This document shows, piece after piece, positions 31,883 through 58,102 of a DNA stretch of 64,000 bases. Location of the stretch: the NCBI GenBank assembly GCA_024400305.1, contig JAKSMX010000001.1, positions 62,001 through 126,000 of the forward strand, in the 5' to 3' direction. Below the pieces are notes generated by a model, which was not told the origin of the DNA, did no database searches, and saw only the letters and a list, made by a program, of their open reading frames with translations. Position numbers and translations under genes: made by a program. This DNA is from Bacteroidales bacterium (GTDB taxonomy: Bacteria > Bacteroidota > Bacteroidia > Bacteroidales > F082). Position 1 is the first letter of the stretch, and every line of letters starts with the position of its first letter.

Positions 31883-32161
31883 GGCTGCCCGCAGGGCAGT
31901 ACTTCAGTAACCGGGTACGCGGCACGCGTGCCCGTGAAAAAAAATAAAAAAAACCGCTCTCCGTATCGAAAAATGCTGTATCTTTGCTGCCGCTATGAAA
32001 TTTGAGAGTTTGCAATATGAAAATCGGCGTTGCGGTCTGCCTGATGCGGCGGACAGGGTAATTGCAATTACCCCCCCCAGTGTGCAAAATATTGTAAATC
32101 AATCACTTGTATTACAAACAAGAACATAGCCTCTGGCATCGTGCCGGGGGCTTTCGGCGTT
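31883..32161 (+). repeat. Cassette leader element, copy A (promoter plus folded leader)
   Basis: This is a roughly 280-base element found three times (A here; B 34634-34889; C 55803-56080, minus strand). From 5' to 3' it holds: a CTGCCC-GCA-GGGCAG hairpin, the palindrome GGCACGCGTGCC, an A-rich tract, CCGCTCTCCGTAT, a TATCTTTG promoter box (31979-31986), a GTCTGCC/GGCGGAC stem (32035-32041 / 32048-32054), the palindrome GGGTAATTGCAATTACCC (32056-32073), and a 9-bp hairpin GCCTCTGGC/GCCGGGGGC (32129-32151) followed by TTTCGGCG. The T run seen after this in copy C is absent here. It lies upstream of the small exported protein gene. Confidence 0.8.
31979..31986 (+). promoter_or_regulatory. Promoter -7 box (TATCTTTG) inside leader A
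   Basis: TATCTTTG matches TAnnTTTG exactly and is conserved at the same place in leader C but deleted in leader B. The predicted transcript has a roughly 245-base leader before the ATG at 32239. Confidence 0.6.
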
Positions 32162-32178
32162 CACTACGAGCCTTTCTC

Positions 32179-32211
32179 ACCTAATCACCTAATTACCTTA
32201 AACACCTAAAA
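32179..32211 (+). repeat. 8-bp tandem repeat ACCTAATY in leader A
   Basis: About four imperfect units (ACCTAATC, ACCTAATT, ACCTTAAA, ACCTAAAA) lie just before gene A1. Five units of the related ACCTGATT occupy the same position in cassette B (34999-35038). Confidence 0.6.
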
Positions 32212-32238
32212 CAACTAAAATAACTAATAAATACAGTA

Positions 32239-32553
32239 ATGAGAAAAAAGATCAGAGACAAGATTGCGCTGGCGGCGGTGCTGCTGGCGCTGACGACGCC
32301 CTGCGCCTGTGCGTACGGGCAGAGCGACGGCTTTTTCAACAGCTGTCAGAGTTACCGCGATGTTGACGATTTTTCAGGAGACATCAACAACCAGAGTTTC
32401 GGTGACGGCGGCAATGAGATTACCAACCAGACATTCGGCGAGGCCCCGCTCGGCGGCGGCATGGCCATCCTCGTGGCATCAGCCGCGGGCTACGCACTCC
32501 TGAAGAGGAGGAGAGACAGCAAACAAACGGAATTCACAAACGATCAAATTTAA
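32239..32553 (+). CDS. Cassette A gene 1: small exported protein with PLGGG-membrane-basic C-terminus
   Basis: The protein has 104 residues. A signal peptide (1-28) ends PCACAYGQ. The middle (29-68) is rich in Asn, Gly and Asp with repeated F-G turns (NNQSFGDGG; TNQTFGEAP). The C-terminus is tripartite: APLGGG (69-74), a hydrophobic segment MAILVASAAGYALL and the basic tail KRRRDSK. The same layout occurs in B1 and C1. It resembles the short C-terminal sorting signals described in Bacteroidota (PID-CTERM-like), but that match is from memory and unverified. It lies 4 bases before the lipoprotein-like gene. Function is unknown. Confidence 0.75.
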   Translation: MRKKIRDKIALAAVLLALTTPCACAYGQSDGFFNSCQSYRDVDDFSGDINNQSFGDGGNEITNQTFGEAPLGGGMAILVASAAGYALLKRRRDSKQTEFTNDQI

Positions 32554-32557
32554 AAAA

Positions 32558-33718
32558 ATGAAGAAAACATTGTTAATGGTCATGGCGGCACTGTCCATGC
32601 TTTTCACACAGTGCAAGAAAACGGAATCGGCATCACCCCTCGCGCCGGCGGGCGACGGACAGGTGAGCATAACACTCGATGTTGACGGCGGCAACTCAAA
32701 GGCCGACGTGAACACCCTGTCGGGCGTGGTGACATTCAAATCCGGCGACGTGATTTATGTCGCAAGCAACGGCGCATACGTCGGCTATCTGACATACAGC
32801 GACGGAACGAGCAGATTCGAAGGCACGCTCACCAATCCTACGGAAGGACAACCTCTGTATTTCTACTTCCTCGGCAACAAAGGCCCTGCGACGGCGAATC
32901 TGGCAACAGGTACTGCAGAACTCACCGCCGACATCAGCGACCAGAGCGACGGACTCCCTGTGATTTCGGGCGCCGCGTCGGACAGGAACTATACGTCAGA
33001 CGTGACAGGCTATTCGGCCAGACTGCTGAACATGTGCGCCTTGGTGAAGTTCGATGTCCAGAACTACGACGGCGACGGCCCGGTGAGCATCACCCCCACG
33101 GACGGCTACCACATGAACAACAAGGTGACGGTGGATTTAGGCAGCAAGAGTTTCAGCTATGATGAAACCAATAACGGCAAGATAACCATCAACCACAAAT
33201 CAGGCAGCAGCGAGTACTGGGCGATACTTCTCCCGCAGGATGAAGTGCCTGGTGGCACAGCTTCGTTTCCTGATGGTAGGAGCGGCGCCTTCATCAACAT
33301 GCCTAAGATAGAATGCAATGCATTTCTGACCAATGCGATAAATGTCATTCTAGTTGATGGAAAGATTACTAATTTTACAATGGAAGACGATGACGAAAGT
33401 AAAGATTATCTAAATTTCAACTTCACGATTGAGCCAAACGCTGGATGCGGTTTTAATAGTGATGCATGCTTATGCCTCTCTATTTACAATGACCATCCAG
33501 AGATTGATGATTGTGATATAAGTATAGTGTGTGAATATCCGTATAACACTGGTTCTATTTCGAAAGATGAAATAAAAAATCATGATTACCAAAGTGGTAA
33601 TACGTTTTATATCCGTCTTTGGGCCGAATTTAAAGACGATAATGGTTATTGTGGTGAGTCAGTGTACGTTTACAGTGATGTAATTGAAGCAAGCTTCACA
33701 TTTGGGGATGATGAATAG
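32558..33718 (+). CDS. Cassette A gene 2: exported fimbrillin-like protein with a replaced C-terminal domain
   Basis: The protein has 386 residues. A signal peptide leads to Cys in SMLFTQCKKTE. Gln at -1 is unusual for a lipobox, but all three paralogues share QC(K/R)K. Residues 25-260 resemble fimbrillin/Mfa-like proteins (GDVIYVASNGAYVGYLTYSD) and align with C2 up to about AINVILVDG. Residues 265-386 do not resemble C2: they are encoded by a much more AT-rich segment (about 33340-33716) and contain several Cys (GCGFNSDACLCLSIY; GYCGESVYV). A TAG stop follows, and the C2-like module then continues in the same frame downstream. This looks like a domain exchange. Confidence 0.75.
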   Translation: MKKTLLMVMAALSMLFTQCKKTESASPLAPAGDGQVSITLDVDGGNSKADVNTLSGVVTFKSGDVIYVASNGAYVGYLTYSDGTSRFEGTLTNPTEGQPLYFYFLGNKGPATANLATGTAELTADISDQSDGLPVISGAASDRNYTSDVTGYSARLLNMCALVKFDVQNYDGDGPVSITPTDGYHMNNKVTVDLGSKSFSYDETNNGKITINHKSGSSEYWAILLPQDEVPGGTASFPDGRSGAFINMPKIECNAFLTNAINVILVDGKITNFTMEDDDESKDYLNFNFTIEPNAGCGFNSDACLCLSIYNDHPEIDDCDISIVCEYPYNTGSISKDEIKNHDYQSGNTFYIRLWAEFKDDNGYCGESVYVYSDVIEASFTFGDDE

Positions 33719-34462
33719 CTCACTACGAGACATCGAGGTCACGGGAACGCGGGGATACGAGGTTTCCCGGAATCCAGCGTCGGTGAGAACAGCACGGTAG
33801 AGTTCGCCCCGGGCAACCTGTGGTACGGCAAAGCTGATGGTGAAGAAACAGCAGCTTTCCATTTCGAGGCGAACCAGTGGGACACGGATCCGACGTCCGA
33901 AGGTCTATGGAATCCCTCTCACGTGAGCCATTTCCTGTGGAGTCCGGACAAGAGTGTTGCAGTAGGCACAAGCACATCGGTGTCCGGCAGTACGTCCGAT
34001 GTGTTCTTCACGAATGATCCGGAGGATGAGACAAAGCCAAACGCAAATTTCCACGTGAACGGTGAGACCGGCACGAACCAGTGGCGCACGTTGAGCAATG
34101 CCGAGTGGAACTACCTTTTGAACAGCCGCGCCAACGCCACGTCCCTCCGCGCCTGGAAGGAACTTGACGACGGCACGCATAAAGGTCTTGTGATACTTCC
34201 AGACGACACGGATGCGTTAGTGATGAGCAGCATAACTTCGACAGCCAACCTTGCCAGCTCCGGCGCTGTCTTCCTCCCTGCCGCCGGCAACCGCAACGTT
34301 ACGGACGTGAACTATGTCGGCTCTTACGGCTACTACTGGTCGAGTACTCCCGACAAGGACAACGGAGGCCTCGCGTTCATCATGTACTTCTGTTCGGACA
34401 GCAGTGTGAGCGCGCGCCTCGGCCTTCGGTACCTCGGGAACTCGGTTCGCCTCGTTCGGTAG
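33719..34462 (+). pseudogene. Orphaned FISUMP / C-type-lectin-like C-terminal module of cassette A
   Basis: After the A2 stop the same reading frame stays open to 34462. From about 33776 it encodes SVGENSTVEFAPGNLWYG, DVFFTNDPEDETKPNANF, WRTLSNAEWNYLLNSRAN and finally GYYWSSTPDKD...NSVRLVR. This matches the C-terminal half of C2 (53728-55242), with 58 of 59 identical bases at 33995-34053. The motif order resembles the Fibrobacter-type FISUMP/DUF1566 C-lectin-like domain. There is no good start codon and the first ~19 codons look random, so it is probably not expressed as an independent protein. Confidence 0.75.
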
Positions 34463-34558
34463 TTCTTGCAGGAGTTCCCTTCTCCCCATGGGAGAGTACA
34501 AAAAGCACAGCAGAAGGGTATGGTGTGGAAACCGGCATCCCATACAATAACTCAAATG

Positions 34559-34596
34559 AAAGGTCTCACTTCGTTTTCGGAGTGGGGCCTTTTTTT
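34559..34596 (+). terminator. Rho-independent terminator of cassette A
   Basis: AGGTCTCACT (34561-34570) pairs with AGTGGGGCCT (34581-34590), including two G-U pairs, followed by six T. The same stem with compensating changes ends cassette C. Confidence 0.85.
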
Positions 34597-34633
34597 GAGT
34601 GTTGAGAGTGGAGTGTTGAGAGTGGAGAGTGGA

Positions 34634-34889
34634 GGCTGCCCGCAGGGCAGCACCTCGGTAACCGGGTATGCGGCACGCGTGCCCGTGAAAAAAAATAAAA
34701 AAAACCGCTCTCCGTATCAAAAAACGCCGTTTCAATATAAAAATCGGCGTTGCGGTCTGCCTGATGCGGCGGACAGGGTGATTGCAATTACCCCCCCCCT
34801 ATGTGCAAGTTGTTGATAATCAATTAGTCAGGCTTTTTGAAAATAAAAATGTTAGCTGTCAGCCACTGGCTGACGGCTTTTGGCGTTTG
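34634..34889 (+). repeat. Cassette leader element, copy B (promoter box deleted)
   Basis: The element matches leaders A and C through CCGCTCTCCGTAT and again from AATATAAAAATCGGCG onward. About 30 bases that carry the TATCTTTG box in the other two copies are missing at about 34730. The distal hairpin has a different sequence but the same shape: GCTGTCAGCC (34855-34864) with GGCTGACGGC (34868-34877), followed by TTTTGGCG. Confidence 0.8.
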
Positions 34890-34963
34890 CATGCGTGCAT
34901 ACATCCCACCGTACCATATTTTACAGGTGCGAAGCCATCCGCACGTCACTTTTTCATAGCACC

Positions 34964-34997
34964 GCCCGCCGTGTGGTGGGGGCGGCGGGCTTTTTTT
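34964..34997 (+). terminator. Strong GC hairpin with T run inside leader B
   Basis: GCCCGCCG (34964-34971) pairs perfectly with CGGCGGGC (34983-34990) and is followed by seven T. It lies about 80 bases before gene B1, so it would block transcription into B1 from upstream or act as an attenuator. Confidence 0.8.
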
Positions 34998-34998
34998 C

Positions 34999-35038
34999 AC
35001 CTGATTACCTGATCACCTGATTACCTGAATACCTGAAA
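34999..35038 (+). repeat. 8-bp tandem repeat ACCTGATT in leader B
   Basis: Five consecutive 8-base units (ACCTGATT, ACCTGATC, ACCTGATT, ACCTGAAT, ACCTGAAA) lie between the leader terminator and gene B1. A related array lies at 32179-32211. Confidence 0.75.
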
Positions 35039-35078
35039 CAACTTAAATAACTAATAAAAAAGAAAGGAGTAAAATGAG

Positions 35079-35429
35079 ATGAAATGTAAAAAGATGAGGG
35101 ACATGATGTGCGCGGCGGCACTATTGCTTGCGCTGACAGTCCCGTCGGCGGCTTACGGTCAGAGCGACGGCTTCTTCAGCAACGTGAATGGCGCGCGCGA
35201 CGGCAACTACAACGGCATTGGCTGGAACGGACTGACCGGCGGCGGCTTGTAGGGCAACTTCAACAACATCGACCCCGACGACAACACCGACGGTAGCGGT
35301 TCGTGGGGCAACTTCAATAATACGTCCCCCGAAGCCGACTTAGGCGGCGGCCTCGCCCTGCTCACGGTGGCAGGCTTCGGCTATGCCTGCGCCAAACGCA
35401 GGAAGGCGAAGAAACAGGAGCTTCATTAA
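35079..35429 (+). pseudogene. Cassette B gene 1: small exported PLGGG-type protein interrupted by an amber codon
   Basis: The start ATG 35079 follows AAAGGAGTAAAATGAG, matching the ribosome-binding context of C1. The frame encodes a signal peptide ending PSAAYGQ, SDGFFSNVNGARDGNYN, then a TAG at 35250-35252. It continues in frame as GNFNNIDPDDN, GSWGNFNNTSPEADLGGG, a hydrophobic segment (LALLTVAGFGYAC) and the basic tail AKRRKAKKQELH. The internal repeat WGNFNN suggests the TAG was a TGG tryptophan codon. Without suppression the product would be 57 residues and lack the membrane tail. Confidence 0.75.
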
Positions 35430-35497
35430 AATGCGCTGACCTGTTGCAGAATCGAAAGTATAAACAAATGTAATTCAACAATTAACAAACACAAAAA

Positions 35498-36040
35498 ATG
35501 AGGAAGAAATTAGTTATCATTGCGATGGCGGTCTTGGCACTGTTCGCCGCACAGTGCAAGAAAAACGAACCGAAACCGAGCGAGAAAGTCATGGTGCCTA
35601 TCACCGGCACTGTTGATTTTGGCGGCTCGAAGACCGAAATCACCACGACGGGTTACATCACCCCTAAGGAGAATGACAGGATTTACATCTACAGTGGAAA
35701 CCAGAATGTGGGTTATGTGGACTGCACGTCCACAAGCGGACAGCAGTTCAACTGCTCTGGCTTGATTGAGGATGACTACCTCGGAACCACCTGCACCTTC
35801 ATGTATTTAGGCACGGGCAGCACCGATGCTAATGGTAATGCCATCGACGGCAGCAGCAGCACCATCAGCTTTGCCAACCAGACCACAGTGAGCGTCAATG
35901 AGGGCAAGGTTGCCAACCTGAACAAGTTCCATGTGGGCAGCTGCAAGGCATTGGTTTCGCAGCAAGGCACTGTCACTCTATTAATTCATAAATTCGAGTG
36001 GAAGCTGTTCCGTTTTTTATCGAAATATCATACTAAATAA
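35498..36040 (+). CDS. Cassette B gene 2: truncated fimbrillin-like exported protein
   Basis: This 180-residue frame starts with a signal peptide and the cassette-typical FAAQCKKNE. The following fimbrillin-like repeat has ENDRIYIYSGNQNVGYVDC, parallel to A2 and C2. Homology ends around GTVT at about 35980. The last ~20 residues (LLIHKFEWKLFRFLSKYHTK) are encoded by AT-rich DNA unlike the paralogues. The remainder of the N-terminal half and the whole C-terminal module are missing, so it is probably a non-functional remnant. Confidence 0.65.
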   Translation: MRKKLVIIAMAVLALFAAQCKKNEPKPSEKVMVPITGTVDFGGSKTEITTTGYITPKENDRIYIYSGNQNVGYVDCTSTSGQQFNCSGLIEDDYLGTTCTFMYLGTGSTDANGNAIDGSSSTISFANQTTVSVNEGKVANLNKFHVGSCKALVSQQGTVTLLIHKFEWKLFRFLSKYHTK

Positions 36041-53392: not shown

Positions 53393-53584
53393 AGACATAT
53401 CCTTGTCTTTCATGGTCAAAAGTTGTTTTTACACCTTATTTCGTGAAAAATTTCTTTTAACGCGTTGGCGGAATTAATCCCATTAGGGGGCCTAAACAGC
53501 CTGATTAATTCCGCCAACGTGTTACTTTATGAAACTTCATAAGGTTTTTGTGCTGCCGGGCACTCTTATCTCTCATCTCTTAAC
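53393..53584. other. Convergent intergenic region with a long cruciform
   Basis: After the MFS stop this region holds the 20-bp stem described at 53460-53522 and a purine/pyrimidine tract (TCTTATCTCTCATCTCTTAA) at about 53564-53583. No gene is supported. Confidence 0.5.
53460..53522. repeat. 63-bp inverted repeat with 20-bp near-perfect arms
   Basis: ACGCGTTGGCGGAATTAATC (53460-53479) and GATTAATTCCGCCAACGTGT (53503-53522) are reverse complements except one pair that can form G-U in RNA. The loop holds a smaller TTAGG/CCTAA hairpin. No T run follows on either strand, so it is not a standard terminator. Confidence 0.7.
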
Positions 53585-53614
53585 AAAAAAAGCCCCACTA
53601 TGACAGTGAGGCTT
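53585..53614 (-). terminator. Rho-independent terminator of cassette C (distal copy)
   Basis: The minus strand reads AAGCCTCACT-GTCAT-AGTGGGGCTT followed by T7: a 10-bp stem with one G-U pair. The same 30 bases recur exactly at 56115-56144, upstream of the cassette. Confidence 0.85.
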
Positions 53615-53727
53615 TCGTATGAAGTATAGTGCTGGTTTACGCTCCGCGAGTACCGGCGCCCGATGCTTTTCACCCATTGCGCGTCGCCTCTCTGCGGCGT
53701 GGGAAGGGTAAGCCTGCAAAAGGGCGA

Positions 53728-55242
53728 CTAACGCACGAGGCGGACGGCGCTACCGATGTCCCGAGTCACGGGCATACGATATATGTAATTATCCTCGAAG
53801 TCGATGGCGTGCGCTTGATGCGCTTGATCTGAGTCACTGTACTCGCCGGAAGTACTCGACCAGTAGAAGCTCGAAGTAAGCCCATGACAGATGGTCGTGC
53901 CAACGCGGTAGCCGCCGTCTATAGGGAAGAAGACAGCGCCGGAGTCCGCGACCAACTTCGTGGTGGTCACTCCGCTCGCAGTCTCATCTGATTTGTCTGG
54001 AAGTATCACAAAACCATTTACACCGTCGTCCAAGCAGACAAACCCACAGAGGCTTGACGCATTGGCGCGGCTGTGCAAAAGGTAGTCCCACTCGTCTATG
54101 GACAGCGTGCGCCACGTGCCTTTCTCCTGTCCAGACACCTGGAAATTTGCGTTTGGCTTTGTCTCATCCTCCGGATCATTCGTGAAGAACACGTCGGACT
54201 CTGAAGCATCGCCGTCACTGTAACTTTCACCGTATGCAACCGACTCGCTATTACTCCAGTAGAAATATCTCACGTGGGTGCAATCCCATTGATCATAGGG
54301 CTGCTCACACTGGTTCGCCTCGAAATGGAACGCGCTGCCGTCCCAGTACAGGTCGTCAGGAGCGAACTCTACCGTGCTGTTCTCACCGACGCTGAACTTC
54401 GGCGCTGGGGCAGCCGCCTCCAGCGTCACCGCTATCGCGTCCTTCATGCCGTAGAGCTTGTTCGCCTGAAGGCCCGGAACCTTGCCTTCGCCTTCATCCG
54501 AACTGCCGGCGAACGTCAGGGTCTGCTCAGTAGCGTCGCCCGTGGGAACAAGCATAACGTAACGCTCCGCATTGCCAGAGCCGAGGGTGATATTGCCAGT
54601 CGTCTTGCCTTTGAACGTCCCAGCGAAATCCACCGTCATTTCATTATAGATGTTGTCGCCGTTCAATGTCAGTGCGTCTGTGTAATCGGCACCATCCTTC
54701 GTGAAGCTGAAGCGGGCCAACGCCACCTTGCTGACCAGAGTCACATTGATGCCTGTCACAACGCCGTCCTTAACAGTGCCCTTCGCAGTGCCGTAGCCCA
54801 CATGCTGGGCGCTCGCGTTCTCCAGCTTGCCATTATTGTTGTAGATGTTCTGGCTCGAAAAATCAACTTCGGCCGATCCATCTCCAACCGCCAATGTACG
54901 CTCGGCACTGCCTAAATAGTAGAAATGGAACGTCTGCTCGGTGCCATCCGTGATGCCAGTCAGCGCAACGTCGCCGCTGAAAGTGCCTGTGGCTGAACCA
55001 GCACTGCTCACCAATGTGAGGTAGCCGACGTATGTGCCATTGTGACCGACATAAATCTTGTCGTTATCGCTCCATTTTATCGCACCCGCGGGGGTGATGT
55101 CTGTCTTGCTGCCAGGGCCCGCCGTGACGGTCATCCTGACGGTGTTTGCCTCCGGCATCACAGCCGGCATTTCATCTTTCCTGCACTGCGTCATAAGAAG
55201 CAACGCAGCCGCCATGATCATAATTGATAATGTCTTCTTCAT
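53728..55242 (-). CDS. Cassette C gene 2: exported fimbrillin-like protein with FISUMP / C-type-lectin-like module
   Basis: The 504-residue protein begins MKKTLSIMIMAAALLLMTQC, a signal peptide with the cassette-typical QCRK. Residues 30-290 are fimbrillin/Mfa-like (IKWSDNDKIYVGHNGTYVGY). Residues 300-504 form a module with SVGENSTVEFAPDDLYW, DVFFTNDPEDETKPNANF, WRTLSIDEWDYLL, FYWSSTSGEY and the final SAVRLVR, matching the FISUMP/DUF1566-like, C-lectin-like pattern. This is the only copy in which both halves are in one frame. It is probably surface-exposed; the ligand is unknown. Confidence 0.8.
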   Translation of the reverse strand: MKKTLSIMIMAAALLLMTQCRKDEMPAVMPEANTVRMTVTAGPGSKTDITPAGAIKWSDNDKIYVGHNGTYVGYLTLVSSAGSATGTFSGDVALTGITDGTEQTFHFYYLGSAERTLAVGDGSAEVDFSSQNIYNNNGKLENASAQHVGYGTAKGTVKDGVVTGINVTLVSKVALARFSFTKDGADYTDALTLNGDNIYNEMTVDFAGTFKGKTTGNITLGSGNAERYVMLVPTGDATEQTLTFAGSSDEGEGKVPGLQANKLYGMKDAIAVTLEAAAPAPKFSVGENSTVEFAPDDLYWDGSAFHFEANQCEQPYDQWDCTHVRYFYWSNSESVAYGESYSDGDASESDVFFTNDPEDETKPNANFQVSGQEKGTWRTLSIDEWDYLLHSRANASSLCGFVCLDDGVNGFVILPDKSDETASGVTTTKLVADSGAVFFPIDGGYRVGTTICHGLTSSFYWSSTSGEYSDSDQAHQAHAIDFEDNYIYRMPVTRDIGSAVRLVR

Positions 55243-55337: not shown

Positions 55338-55649
55338 CTAATCTCTCCTCGCTCCTCTCTTAACTTTCGCCGCTCCGTAGCACACGCCCGAAAGCGCAAG
55401 CACGAGCAGGCCGCCGCCCAACGGCGTCTCGCCGCCGTCCTCGAAGCCGCTCCACGTGGCCTCGCCACCGGTGTTCTCGCCGAAGCCGAGCCACGAGCCG
55501 GTGCCGCCTGTGCTCCCGCCGCGATGCCCGTCATCGTTGACGTTGAAGAAATTGTCTGTCGTCGTCTGGCCGTACGCCGCCGACGGGACTGCCAGCGCAA
55601 GCAGCAGCGCCGCCGACGCGATGATGTCCCTCATCTTTCTGAATCTCAT
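55338..55649 (-). CDS. Cassette C gene 1: small exported protein with PLGGG-membrane-basic C-terminus
   Basis: The 103-residue protein starts at ATG 55649, 9 bases after GGAG (AAAGGAGTAAAATGAG). The signal peptide ends PSAAYGQ. The middle is Gly/Thr/Asn-rich with repeats GSWLGFGENTGG and ATWSGFEDGG. The C-terminus has TPLGGG (75-80), the hydrophobic LLVLALSGVCYGAA and the basic tail KVKRGARRD. Layout and motifs equal A1 and B1. The next cassette gene, C2, starts 95 bases downstream. Function is unknown; membrane anchoring or sorting of the C-terminus is inferred. Confidence 0.75.
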   Translation of the reverse strand: MRFRKMRDIIASAALLLALAVPSAAYGQTTTDNFFNVNDDGHRGGSTGGTGSWLGFGENTGGEATWSGFEDGGETPLGGGLLVLALSGVCYGAAKVKRGARRD

Positions 55650-55802
55650 CTCATTTTACTCCTTTCTTTAGATTGGTTATACATTTTATAAGTTTTACGT
55701 TTGATATTTCAACCTTTGAATCTTATATCCTTTCACTTTTCAACTCCACTCCCCACTCTCAAAACCCCGCTCTCTTAACTTTCATCTCTTGTCTCTAATC
55801 TG

Positions 55803-56080
55803 AAAAAAACGCCGAAAGCCCCCGGCGCGATGCCGGAGGCCATGTTCTTGTCTGTAATGTAAATAATTGATTTACAATATTTTGCGCATAGGGGTAATTG
55901 CAATCACCCTGTCCGCCACATCAGGCGGACAACAACGCCGATTTTTATATTGCAAATGTTCTATTTTCATAGTGGCGGCAAAGATACGGCGTTTTTCAAT
56001 ACGGAGAACGGTTTTTTTTATTTTTTGCCGTGCACGCGTGCCGCGCACCCTGTTACTGAAGTACTGCCCTGCGGGCAGCC
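55803..56080 (-). repeat. Cassette leader element, copy C (promoter plus overlapping hairpins)
   Basis: On the minus strand this copy has all leader parts: CTGCCC-GCA-GGGCAG, GCACGCGTGC, the A tract, the TATCTTTG box (55986-55979), a perfect GTCCGCC/GGCGGAC stem and GGGTGATTGCAATTACCC. The distal end holds two mutually exclusive hairpins. One is GCCTCCGGC with GCCGGGGGC. The other is CGCCG with CGGCG followed by seven U (55803-55809), which uses part of the first hairpin. This is the arrangement of an attenuator or of a small RNA with its own terminator, upstream of gene C1. Confidence 0.8.
55979..55986 (-). promoter_or_regulatory. Promoter -7 box (TATCTTTG) inside leader C
   Basis: Exact TAnnTTTG match on the minus strand, in the same position as in leader A. 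The predicted leader before C1 is about 330 bases. Confidence 0.6.
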
Positions 56081-56172: not shown

Positions 56173-56829
56173 TTAACGATCCTCGCACTGATGTTCGCAG
56201 CCTTCGTGGTTGCCTTCGCATTCGTGCTTCGGAGCGCATTTCTCGTGCATCACCATCATGAAGCCCTTGCAGTGGTGGAGTTTGCAGCAAAGAACGGCTT
56301 TCTGCTCATCCATTGTGAGTGAATCGAAAGCAGCCCATTTTGCTTCGCATTCTTCTTTTGTCAACATGCCTTCGCATCTGTGCTGTTCGCCGCACTTCGT
56401 AGCGATGCTGTCGTGATTGCAGCCTTCGTGGTTGCCTTCGCACTTGTGGCCTTCACCCTCGTGGTTGCATTCGTGCTTGCAGCCCTCGTGGTTGCCTTCG
56501 CATTTCGCTTCGCCTTCGTGGTTGCAGCATTTGCCGGCAGCTTCCATCTCGGCTTTCTTGGCTTCGCATTTCTCGACGCGTGCCTTCGCCATCGCGATGC
56601 CTGCGGCTTTCAACGAGTCGCTGGCGTTCTCCCAGTTCATCATGATGTCGATGATGCCTTCGATTTCAGCTCTGTCTTCAGCTGTCATCTCGTGGCATTT
56701 CTTCACGCTGTCGCACCGGACTGTCTGTTCTTCACATTTGGCTTCTTTGTTTTCCTTGTTTTCCTGACCTCCGCAGCATGAAGTCATCATTAATGCCGCG
56801 AGACCGATTGCTAAGAATAATCTCTTCAT
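56173..56829 (-). CDS. Lipoprotein with repeated CEGNHEGC metal-binding-like motifs
   Basis: The 218-residue protein has a lipoprotein signal (AIGLAALMMTSCCGG). Residues 45-95 resemble small periplasmic Asp/Glu-rich helices (EMTAEDRAEIEGIIDIMMNW). From about 98 on, Cys and His are extremely frequent: CEGNHEGC occurs three times (CEGNHEGCKHEC, CEGNHEGCNH, CEGNHEGCEHQC), with CNHEGE-type spacers and CCKLHHCKG. Such clusters suggest binding of zinc, copper or another soft metal. I recognise no family. The leader between promoter and ATG holds a small CAGAC/GTCTG hairpin. It is monocistronic. Confidence 0.8.
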   Translation of the reverse strand: MKRLFLAIGLAALMMTSCCGGQENKENKEAKCEEQTVRCDSVKKCHEMTAEDRAEIEGIIDIMMNWENASDSLKAAGIAMAKARVEKCEAKKAEMEAAGKCCNHEGEAKCEGNHEGCKHECNHEGEGHKCEGNHEGCNHDSIATKCGEQHRCEGMLTKEECEAKWAAFDSLTMDEQKAVLCCKLHHCKGFMMVMHEKCAPKHECEGNHEGCEHQCEDR

Positions 56830-56989: not shown

Positions 56990-58102
56990 ATGACGAAAAG
57001 ACTCACGCTGATGTTATTAGTTCTGCTGACTTTTGCAGGATGCAGGAAAGAGCCGTTTTTCATGCGGACGACATTGTTCCGTTCTGGCAACTACAACTCG
57101 CAGAACTACCGCATTCCGGCGATAATCACGGCGAAGGACGGCACTATCGTGACCCTGACCGACAAACGCAAATGCAACGACCTCGACCTACCGCAGGACA
57201 TCGACGTGGTGTGCCGTTACAGCGAGGACATGGGCGCGACATGGAGCGAACCTGTCACCGTGGCTGAAGGCACCGGCCGCAAGCACGGCTACGGCGACGC
57301 GGCCATCGCCCTCACCAACGACCCGAACGGACTGATAAGCGTGTTCGTCGGCGGCACGGGGTTCTGGCAATCGACACCGACAAATTCAAACCGCACATAC
57401 AAATCAATGAGTTATGACGGCGGCCGCACCTGGACCGAGCCGGAAGACATCACACATTTCATCTTCGGCAAAGACTGCGGCGACAGCATACGCCGCCATT
57501 GGCGCGGCTCGTTCTGCGCCTCCGGCAACGGCCTGCTCACAAGCACCGGAAGAATAATGTTCGTGGCTGCGGTGCACGAAGACGCCGAATGGGTCGCCAC
57601 GAACTACGTGGTCTATTCCGACGACAACGGCGCGACGTGGAACGTCTCCGGACGAGCCTCCGTCGGCGGCGATGAGGCCAAGGTCGTCGAACTCGGGAAC
57701 GGCGACATCCTGATGAGCATGCGACATCAGGGAAACCGATGGTACAACATCTCGCATGACGGCGGCGTGACATGGAACGACACCGTCGCCGAATGGACCG
57801 ACCTCACCGGACCGGCGTGCAATGGCGACATCATACCTTATTATATTAATGGGAAACGGGTGCTTCTGCATTCGCTGCCCGCAAGCGACAGACGCGAGAA
57901 CGTCGCCGTCTATGTGTCTGAAGATGAAGGCAAGACGTGGTCGCACAAGAAAATCATCGTGCCGTATTTCTCGGCCTACTCGTCGCTCTGCGTGCTTCCC
58001 GACAACACCATCGGCCTCTACGTCGAGGAGTGCATGTACGAAGACGAAGGCTACGAGATGGTGTTTTACCGATTTGATTACGATTACCTAATGAACAATT
58101 AA
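56990..58102 (+). CDS. Lipoprotein exo-alpha-sialidase (BNR/Asp-box)
   Basis: The 370-residue protein has a lipoprotein signal (LMLLVLLTFAGCRKE). It has the sialidase arginine motif in NYRIPAIITAKDG, DKRKCNDLDLPQDIDV, and four Asp-boxes: SEDMGATWSEP, SYDGGRTWTEP, SDDNGATWNVS and SHDGGVTWNDT, with a fifth like SEDEGKTWSHK. The size fits a GH33 catalytic domain without extra carbohydrate modules. It would release terminal sialic acid from host or dietary glycans at the cell surface. No nan genes are nearby. Confidence 0.93.
   Translation: MTKRLTLMLLVLLTFAGCRKEPFFMRTTLFRSGNYNSQNYRIPAIITAKDGTIVTLTDKRKCNDLDLPQDIDVVCRYSEDMGATWSEPVTVAEGTGRKHGYGDAAIALTNDPNGLISVFVGGTGFWQSTPTNSNRTYKSMSYDGGRTWTEPEDITHFIFGKDCGDSIRRHWRGSFCASGNGLLTSTGRIMFVAAVHEDAEWVATNYVVYSDDNGATWNVSGRASVGGDEAKVVELGNGDILMSMRHQGNRWYNISHDGGVTWNDTVAEWTDLTGPACNGDIIPYYINGKRVLLHSLPASDRRENVAVYVSEDEGKTWSHKKIIVPYFSAYSSLCVLPDNTIGLYVEECMYEDEGYEMVFYRFDYDYLMNN

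Follow-up and report, generated by a model that had tools for sequence, protein, structure and literature searches.

The window analysed here, a stretch of 64,000 nucleotides from a Bacteroidales assembly of 2.86 Mb (98.8% complete, 76 contigs; G000:C1:62001-126000 in our numbering of genomes and contigs), carries three copies, A, B and C, of a cassette in which a leader RNA is followed by a gene for a small exported protein with a C-terminal PLGGG motif and then by a gene for a large lipoprotein. From the sequence, we propose that the cassette encodes a matched pair, a small substrate of an X-type exosortase and a lipoprotein, with the small peptide serving as the dedicated partner of its neighbour. 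We infer the cleavage, the partner role and the regulation, and place the probability of this reading at a little under 0.6. The gene pair, together with natural fusions in which the signals of both proteins are kept, suggests a joint, protease-processed surface system. The features of the three cassettes are as follows.

31979..32168, plus strand: leader RNA of A, defined by alignment, covariation and an RNA model
Within the leader of A: -7 element TATCTTTG, 31979-31986; hairpin 1, 32035-32054; C-tract of 8, 32071-32078; terminator-like hairpin 2, 32130-32150
32239..32553, plus strand: A1, small exported protein of 104 residues that would mature near QSDGFFN and ends in PLGGG, a hydrophobic stretch and KRRR, a putative exosortase-type sorting signal
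32558..33718, plus strand: A2, lipoprotein of 386 residues with lipobox ...MLFTQC and a fimbrillin-like N-terminal part, ending ahead of any FISUMP module
33770..34462, plus strand: FISUMP/C-lectin-like remainder past the A2 stop (PF09603, E 0.0017; PF07603, E 0.0039; both below cut-off)
34562..34597, plus strand: terminator-like hairpin and T run after A, from direct reading
34728..34894, plus strand: leader RNA of B, which has lost the -7 element and its 5' part by deletion; C-tract of 9, stem of hairpin 2 changed yet paired
35079..35430, plus strand: B1, small-protein pseudogene, in-frame TAG at 35250-35252
35498..36040, plus strand: B2, shortened lipoprotein reading frame of 180 residues, matching C2 residues 1-163
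55802..55986, minus strand: leader RNA of C, with a C-tract of 4 and a T run after its terminator-like hairpin
55338..55649, minus strand: C1, small exported protein of 103 residues with the PLGGG sorting signal
53728..55242, minus strand: C2, lipoprotein of 504 residues (LLLMTQC), fimbrillin-like N-terminal and FISUMP/C-lectin-like C-terminal part (PF07603, E 0.073)
53584..53616, minus strand: terminator-like hairpin and T run after C, from direct reading

All three cassettes were found, with their parts in the same order, where an original prediction made from this DNA had placed them, and the exported protein of about 100 residues with a PLGGG-hydrophobic-basic end that it described is present as A1 and C1. 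Its statement that similarity reaches the untranslated regions was also borne out, as the leaders of A, B and C showed a mean column identity of 73% on alignment, and the terminator shape recurs on direct reading after A (approximately 34562-34597) and after C (approximately 53616-53584, minus strand); a consensus terminator scan did not list the hairpin after A. B is a decayed copy, since a deletion of 31 nucleotides has taken out the -7 element together with the start of its leader, B1 is interrupted by an in-frame TAG and B2 is only 180 residues long. A is mosaic at its 3' end, where the remainder past the A2 stop is in frame with A2 and shares 54% identity with residues 281-504 of C2. The final part of A2 itself (33330-33720), before the stop and the FISUMP remainder, is unlike that of its nearest relatives, and is perhaps a mosaic junction.

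In an alignment of seven small proteins of the genome, a signal peptide at the N-terminus is followed by a mature start near QSDGFF, then by a linker that varies between members and last by a P[LV]GGG-helix-basic tail. The NCBIfam model PID_CTERM (NF046080), which we take to describe the signal paired with XrtX, matched all seven with 12.1-19.5 bits, and small proteins from outside the genus (four of four tested) with 22.2-25.3 bits, below the cut-off of 26. The layout of a CTERM signal, in which an exported protein ends in motif, membrane helix and basic tail, is seen both when the small gene stands separately ahead of a lipoprotein gene (split form) and when it is linked to a type IX-secreted protein; in forms fused to a lipoprotein, the CTERM-like signal is internal. 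By these features, the small protein with its PLGGG end resembles the substrates of X-type exosortases. Among named relatives, it was found in Candidatus Limimorpha caballi and in a Bacteroidales bacterium from horse faeces, for example.

A single exosortase is encoded in the genome, with a score of 54.0 bits against TIGR04178 (cut-off 23; 56.2 bits in the genome search). Its best named family is XrtX (NF046081, 87.7 bits), and it also matches XrtF (48.2 bits, cut-off 90). Cys103, Arg144 and His163, which are presumably the catalytic residues of exosortases, were invariant in all 31 aligned sequences (this enzyme and 30 loci returned by the search of relatives). When 119 genomes were searched, the small protein was detected in 72/72 genomes of the genus and 5/47 others, and the exosortase in 70/72 and 20/47, respectively; four of the five non-genus genomes with the small protein had an exosortase. 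A broader small-protein profile (A3) was then applied to 295 genomes of the order and matched 46, while an XrtX-like exosortase was found in 118/295, none scoring above the family cut-off. Outside the genus, an exosortase was present in 28/32 genomes with the sorting signal, compared to 86/259 without it (Fisher p 3.2e-9), a comparison that leaves out the genus (4 genomes) and 10 genomes matched over the signal peptide only; 4 of these 10 have an exosortase, giving 32/42 with all counted. In G365 (L221), a type IX-tailed protein, the small gene and the exosortase lie in that order, with gaps of 11 and 20 nucleotides.

The neighbours of the small gene fell into two kinds. Among the 83 distinct small-protein reading frames in the loci gathered by the time of the census (those of relatives being the best-scoring loci and not a random sample), 46 lay directly 3' of a type IX tail, as recognised by a model built from 12 tails of the same loci and hence partly circular. 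Eighteen lay directly 5' of a lipoprotein of the cassette family, seven were fused to one, one was fused to another exported protein (L085), one had a type IX protein downstream only and ten had no recognised partner. As an independent check, TIGR04183 scored over its cut-off of 23 in three of four type IX partners tested (35.4, 29.7 and 25.7 bits), with the partner in G365 reaching 21.3. The genome has 92 type IX tails, 91 of them over cut-off, and all five of its small genes outside cassettes (C75, C67, C43, C76 and C17) directly follow a type IX-tailed gene. Outside the genus, at a lenient threshold, 10 of 12 fetched loci had the small gene 7-37 nucleotides after a type IX-tailed protein; the remaining two contained tandem small genes after a type IX protein (L231) or another gene in between (L224). 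Because small genes mostly follow a type IX-secreted protein, the cassette seems to be a redeployment of this wider pairing.

The two kinds of partner are mirrored in the small proteins themselves. An HG motif was found in 24/47 type IX-linked and 0/47 lipoprotein-linked small proteins, and an ITNQxFG-like motif in 0/47 and 17/47, respectively. In split pairs, the gap between small gene and lipoprotein was at most 44 nucleotides in 20/25. The prediction of a conserved leader, one tiny partner and a variable large protein was therefore supported as to composition, and needs amending in that the small gene is not specific to the cassette, with 46/83 following a type IX protein. The test that the prediction had proposed against itself, namely leader and small gene occurring elsewhere independently and without fimbrillin-like partners, came out partly positive, as all five non-cassette small genes of the genome follow type IX proteins. 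The prediction had not identified the sorting signal as exosortase-type, and the gene fusions lay beyond the DNA available to it.

Across 12 assemblies (11 of the G genomes plus the named record L061, possibly the same as one of the 11), 25 distinct genes encode the small protein and the lipoprotein in a single reading frame. The fused chain runs from a signal peptide through a QSDGFF-like region, PxGSG, a helix, RRK and a short basic linker to a second hydrophobic stretch, a lipobox Cys and a fimbrillin-like part, and most fused genes have a FISUMP-like end of the VRLV type. On aligning the 25 fused genes with 25 split pairs, the Pro of PxGxG was kept in 24/25 fused and 24/25 split forms, both Gly in 25/25 and 24/25, the Tyr in 25/25 and 25/25, and the lipobox Cys in 25/25 and 25/25. 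A simple hydropathy rule found all three hydrophobic segments in 24/25 fused chains, and the linker between the helices carried a net charge of +1 to +5 in 25/25, as expected of a cytoplasmic loop. A chain in need of only a single anchor should have little reason to retain every one of these signals, and the simplest reading is that both sites in fused chains are still cut.

A tree of 49 lipoprotein parts required at least nine changes between the fused and split states, at least three of them on well-supported branches; it was built by a quick method, contains one very long branch (L131) and leaves out L082, in which the lipobox was missed by the pattern used. As judged from this tree, fused and split forms swap repeatedly in evolution. 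The numbers of fused and split genes are not frequencies, since long open frames were fetched on purpose and the sample is enriched for fusions. We suggest more tentatively, and would give it somewhat less than even odds, that the fused gene encodes a surface polyprotein with two signals for export and, between these, a site for the exosortase, which would be cut by signal peptidase I, the X-type exosortase and signal peptidase II to give a small partner peptide plus a lipoprotein with a lectin-like head, which would be interchangeable with the two-gene form and which would derive from the order-wide type IX pairing. A different fusion was seen at L085:459-2219 / L173 (G022:C133), where a small-protein domain precedes a very long exported protein (open frame of 2721 residues) that has a second signal peptide of its own and is not a lipoprotein.

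The steps that we envisage for the matched pair are the following. The small protein would be exported through Sec, lose its N-terminus to signal peptidase I and be held in the inner membrane by its PxG[GS]G-helix-basic tail. The exosortase would cut near PxG[GS]G, and either free a short peptide starting near QSDGFF or transfer this peptide to an acceptor. The lipoprotein would be cut by signal peptidase II and present a fimbrillin-like stalk with a variable FISUMP/C-lectin-like head; signal peptidases I and II act at signals of these kinds. The processed peptide may be an escort, assembly or anchoring factor dedicated to its neighbour, and the same exosortase, with small proteins of the same kind, would also serve type IX-secreted proteins in the wider arrangement. 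A fused chain carries both processing signals, and the expected cut would yield the same two products. Expression would start at the leader in copies that have one, where hairpin 2 and the C-tract are placed so that they could attenuate or vary it.

Several observations weigh against this reading. All small proteins tested scored below the PID_CTERM cut-off of 26 bits, and unrelated models came near or above PID_CTERM for some of the seven, with NF008667 (15.3 bits) and NF033802 (15.6 bits) outranking it for two of them. The exosortase itself falls below the XrtX cut-off of 170 bits and just under that of the Pfam family EpsH (PF09721; 22.7-24.9 against 25.7). Small proteins occurred with no exosortase match in G001 and G061 of the genus (89% and 80% complete), in G084, one of the five non-genus genomes of the 119-genome set, and in G145, G250, G271 and G328 of the order-wide set (4/32); conversely, exosortases are common where no small protein was detected (86/259). 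Two adjoining family lipoproteins at C1:11661-15329 (L047, L175) had no small gene visible beside them, and the same was seen at L198 and L201. The residue before the lipobox Cys is mostly Gln or Asn, while Gly, Ala or Ser is usual at this position. Finally, the leader was matched in only 13/119 genomes, at 29 places (RNA model, stricter filters), and is absent or unrecognised before many cassettes, and a C or G tract lies upstream of only 14/23 split and 5/24 fused genes.

The low PID_CTERM scores are also what would be expected if the small protein were not cut at all and acted as a membrane-tethered assembly or chaperone factor, with its PxGGG end as a mere anchor and the fused forms staying joined or being cut by signal peptidase II only. 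A helix with a basic tail is indeed a generic anchor. However, a plain anchor has no need of the Pro and both Gly ahead of the helix, which are retained in 24-25 of the 25 copies of each form (split and fused), and would not account for the co-occurrence of exosortase and small protein inside and outside the genus, or for the small gene adjoining the exosortase in G365. We consider an uncut anchor unlikely, though worth keeping in view.

The expectation that the genome would hold more copies proved correct. Searches with the leader, small protein and lipoprotein gave six cassettes in the genome, namely A, B, C, two with leader, small gene and lipoprotein all present (contig C8, 17.8-20.0 kb; contig C12, 112.0-113.5 kb) and one that begins at the end of contig C33 and comprises small gene and lipoprotein; more were found in relatives. 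Two further family lipoproteins (C8:2-1324 and C12:175645-177344) are cut by contig ends, and the small gene is not visible there. The leader of A, used as query, matched the genome 22 times at E <= 0.001; nine of these matches exceed 150 bases, and the total is far beyond chance. Five further leaders (C1:17, C2:1, C30, C40 and C42) reach a contig end within about 100 nucleotides; a description of these as stand-alone leaders lacking a cassette was dropped, as the contig ends offer no proof either way. A minisatellite of the GAGTGGAGTTTTGA type lies 3' of the leaders where the flank is readable (C30, C42). Leaders ending at contig ends, together with this minisatellite, suggest that the assembly probably broke some cassettes between leader and small gene. 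The GAGTGGAGTTTTGA-type minisatellite is also present in the window at 34596-34633, and is probably the cause of the assembly breaks.

Such clustering of copies by repeats and contig ends, the flanking of leaders by repeats and minisatellite, and the decay of B would all fit a local duplication, i.e. a repeat family spread by recombination with the small gene hitchhiking and having no role. This explanation is quite improbable, since the gene order persists in many species at low identity, the two small-protein subclasses (HG as against ITNQxFG-like motif) track the kind of partner, and repeated fusion and fission have retained both parts. An AAA-ATPase_like gene present in many copies (PF09820, which matches the genome 11 times; the copy on contig C8 also matches PF08011) was observed downstream of four of the genome's cassette lipoproteins, at a distance of less than 1 kb, an arrangement with a probability of about 2e-8 by chance (4/11, eight target sites). 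The copies are at G000:C33:2317-3897, C8:1723-3309, C8:20.1-20.7 kb (a fragment) and C12:173480-175063, and the gene is also found 3' of a cassette lipoprotein in a horse relative (L057:8505-10061).

The leader had been described as a structured element of about 280 bases. A conserved leader is indeed present, and its structured part is shorter, at about 190 nucleotides (31979-32168 in A); it follows a repeat of about 50 nucleotides that also occurs alone. This repeat (window 31883-31934, 34634-34690 and 56080-56020) contains two palindromes (GGCTGCCCGCAGGGCAG... CGGGTACGCGGCACGCGTGCCCG) and is found without a leader at six or more other places in the genome, as a REP-like element. The -7 element TATCTTTG was assigned by what we take to be the -7 promoter consensus. 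Comparison of 14 leaders (9 from the genome, 5 from horse-derived relatives) indicated two hairpins around a conserved AUUACCC(C)n stretch. Over the 16 base pairs of both hairpins, 95.1% of cells were paired compared to 75.0% in shuffles, and cells changed on both sides of a pair numbered 42 against 13.2 in shuffles; pairings slid along the alignment reached at most 51.3%. Two weaker measures of covariation were equalled by 20 and 56 of 500 shuffles. Hairpin 2 is terminator-like, and its T run is long in C and in four of the leaders that reach contig ends, and lost in A. The C-tract measures 4, 6, 8, 9, 9, 9 and 10 in otherwise similar copies of the genome, and runs of six or more C or G were present upstream of 14/23 split and 5/24 fused genes, compared to 0/47 type IX-linked small genes (p 3.9e-7). 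Upstream of L131, L137 and L180, a G run stands in place of the C run, possibly marking a second leader class. Rfam 15 gave no match in the window at gathering score, the leader itself drawing five matches at E 1.1-3.1, far below gathering. Judged by these comparisons, the leader is an undescribed two-hairpin RNA element with a variable C-tract, and it is a reasonable guess that slippage at the C-tract could drive variation in expression.

The leader is tied to the cassette only in part. Outside the genome and G069, the RNA model gave 14 matches, five of which lie 5' of split cassettes (L184, L185, L186, L187 and L189) and four where fused genes begin (L190, L192, L193 and L197). Three precede lipoproteins without a small gene (L188, L198 and L201), with L203 as a further such case, and of the last two, L191 runs towards a contig end and L194 lies elsewhere (E 0.0099). 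Several leaders share a frame of some 32 codons that ends near ITPP, which might suggest that the leader acts through a leader peptide whose translation controls hairpin 2. We rejected this candidate as highly improbable, as the codon-position counts carry no coding signal (substitutions between the divergent leaders sC1 and L057 number 14, 15 and 13, with no excess at third positions), sC40 has a break in the frame and B no longer has it, and pairing accounts for part of the conservation of the leader.

A lipobox Cys after a signal peptide, the mark of a bacterial lipoprotein, is present in 25/25 split and 25/25 fused forms. The folds of the lipoproteins are suggested by weak family matches. 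For the N-terminal part, PF13149 (Mfa_like_1) matched 2/24 family lipoproteins (best 1.5e-4) and NF038041 matched A2 at E 0.012; for the head, TIGR02145 (FISUMP) matched 3/24 (best 1.6e-7) and PF07603 (Lcl_C) 6/24. A sequence search of the PDB gave no match for C2 and one at chance level for the alignment A4 (E 0.86). As for the description of the large protein as fimbrillin-like with a FISUMP module, C2 has a FISUMP/C-lectin-like part, A2 stops before this module and the fimbrillin match is weak (PF13149 in 2/24). Least credible of all is that the cassette is a target family of a diversity-generating retroelement (DGR), with a fimbrillin stalk and a C-lectin variable head: the variable C-terminal module is C-lectin-like and ends in VRLVR, and C-lectin folds are known DGR scaffolds (PMC5006420, PMC6328139), but we rejected a DGR for this genome, in which, with the search confined to it, no reverse transcriptase (PF00078) was found at E 0.01, a control search having detected PF00078 in 3/14 genomes. 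The suggested interchange of the surface proteins, if by recombination, gained no firm support: A is mosaic at its 3' end, but no reverse transcriptase, the only diversifying machinery looked for, was found.

Beside cassette C, at 56173-56829 on the minus strand, lies a gene for an exported protein of 218 residues with repeated Cys/His/Glu-rich motifs (CEGNHEGC...), perhaps metal-binding, which had no Pfam match. Near it, a gene at 56990-58102 looks sialidase-like.

In the literature searched, which left most subscription papers and bioRxiv preprints outside its scope, we found neither a small exosortase substrate as a regular neighbour of type IX-secreted proteins or lectin-like lipoproteins, nor a fusion of such a substrate into a chain with two export signals. 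The available parts of papers on exosortases and type IX secretion, including PMC10936215 and PMC7468200, did not contain this system. In Flavobacterium johnsoniae, loss of xrtF lowers surface colonisation and biofilm formation, and that study leaves the substrates of the enzyme to future work (PMC10936215). The loci described here provide candidate substrates by the dozen, and position or fusion associates each of them with one particular surface protein; the question of what exosortases of the Bacteroidota act on, and why, can therefore be tested pair by pair, with the natural fused chains as ready-made cleavage reporters. The loci would also connect these enzymes with type IX secretion and with lipoproteins on the surface of gut Bacteroidales.

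The system would work in the manner of the exosortase/CTERM class, to which the general signature model assigns its enzyme; we do not file it as XrtX or PID-CTERM proper, since both curated cut-offs were missed. Exosortases have been proposed to act at CTERM signals (PMC1569441). With exosortase/PEP-CTERM sorting (EpsH; PMC1569441), and XrtX/PID-CTERM (NF046081, NF046080) in particular, the system shares a tripartite C-terminal signal (motif, helix and basic tail), many substrates per enzyme, the presence of enzyme and signal in the same genomes and the Cys, Arg and His residues. It differs in that the substrate is a tiny stand-alone partner of a type IX-secreted protein or lipoprotein, or is fused ahead of a lipoprotein, and in its PxG[GS]G motif and scores below both curated cut-offs. 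XrtF of F. johnsoniae is likewise an exosortase of the Bacteroidota, though the enzyme of this genome is nearer to XrtX, and the part of that study available describes no substrate pairs or fusions (PMC10936215). With type V pilins and fimbrillins (PF13149, NF038041), the cassette lipoprotein has in common the lipobox, its occurrence in Bacteroidales and, by weak matches, a fimbrillin-like N-terminal part, but it carries a C-lectin/FISUMP head and has a small partner gene. Finally, the tail of type IX cargo (TIGR04183) is carried by the partners of the other small-protein subclass, whereas the partner in the cassettes of the window is a lipoprotein.

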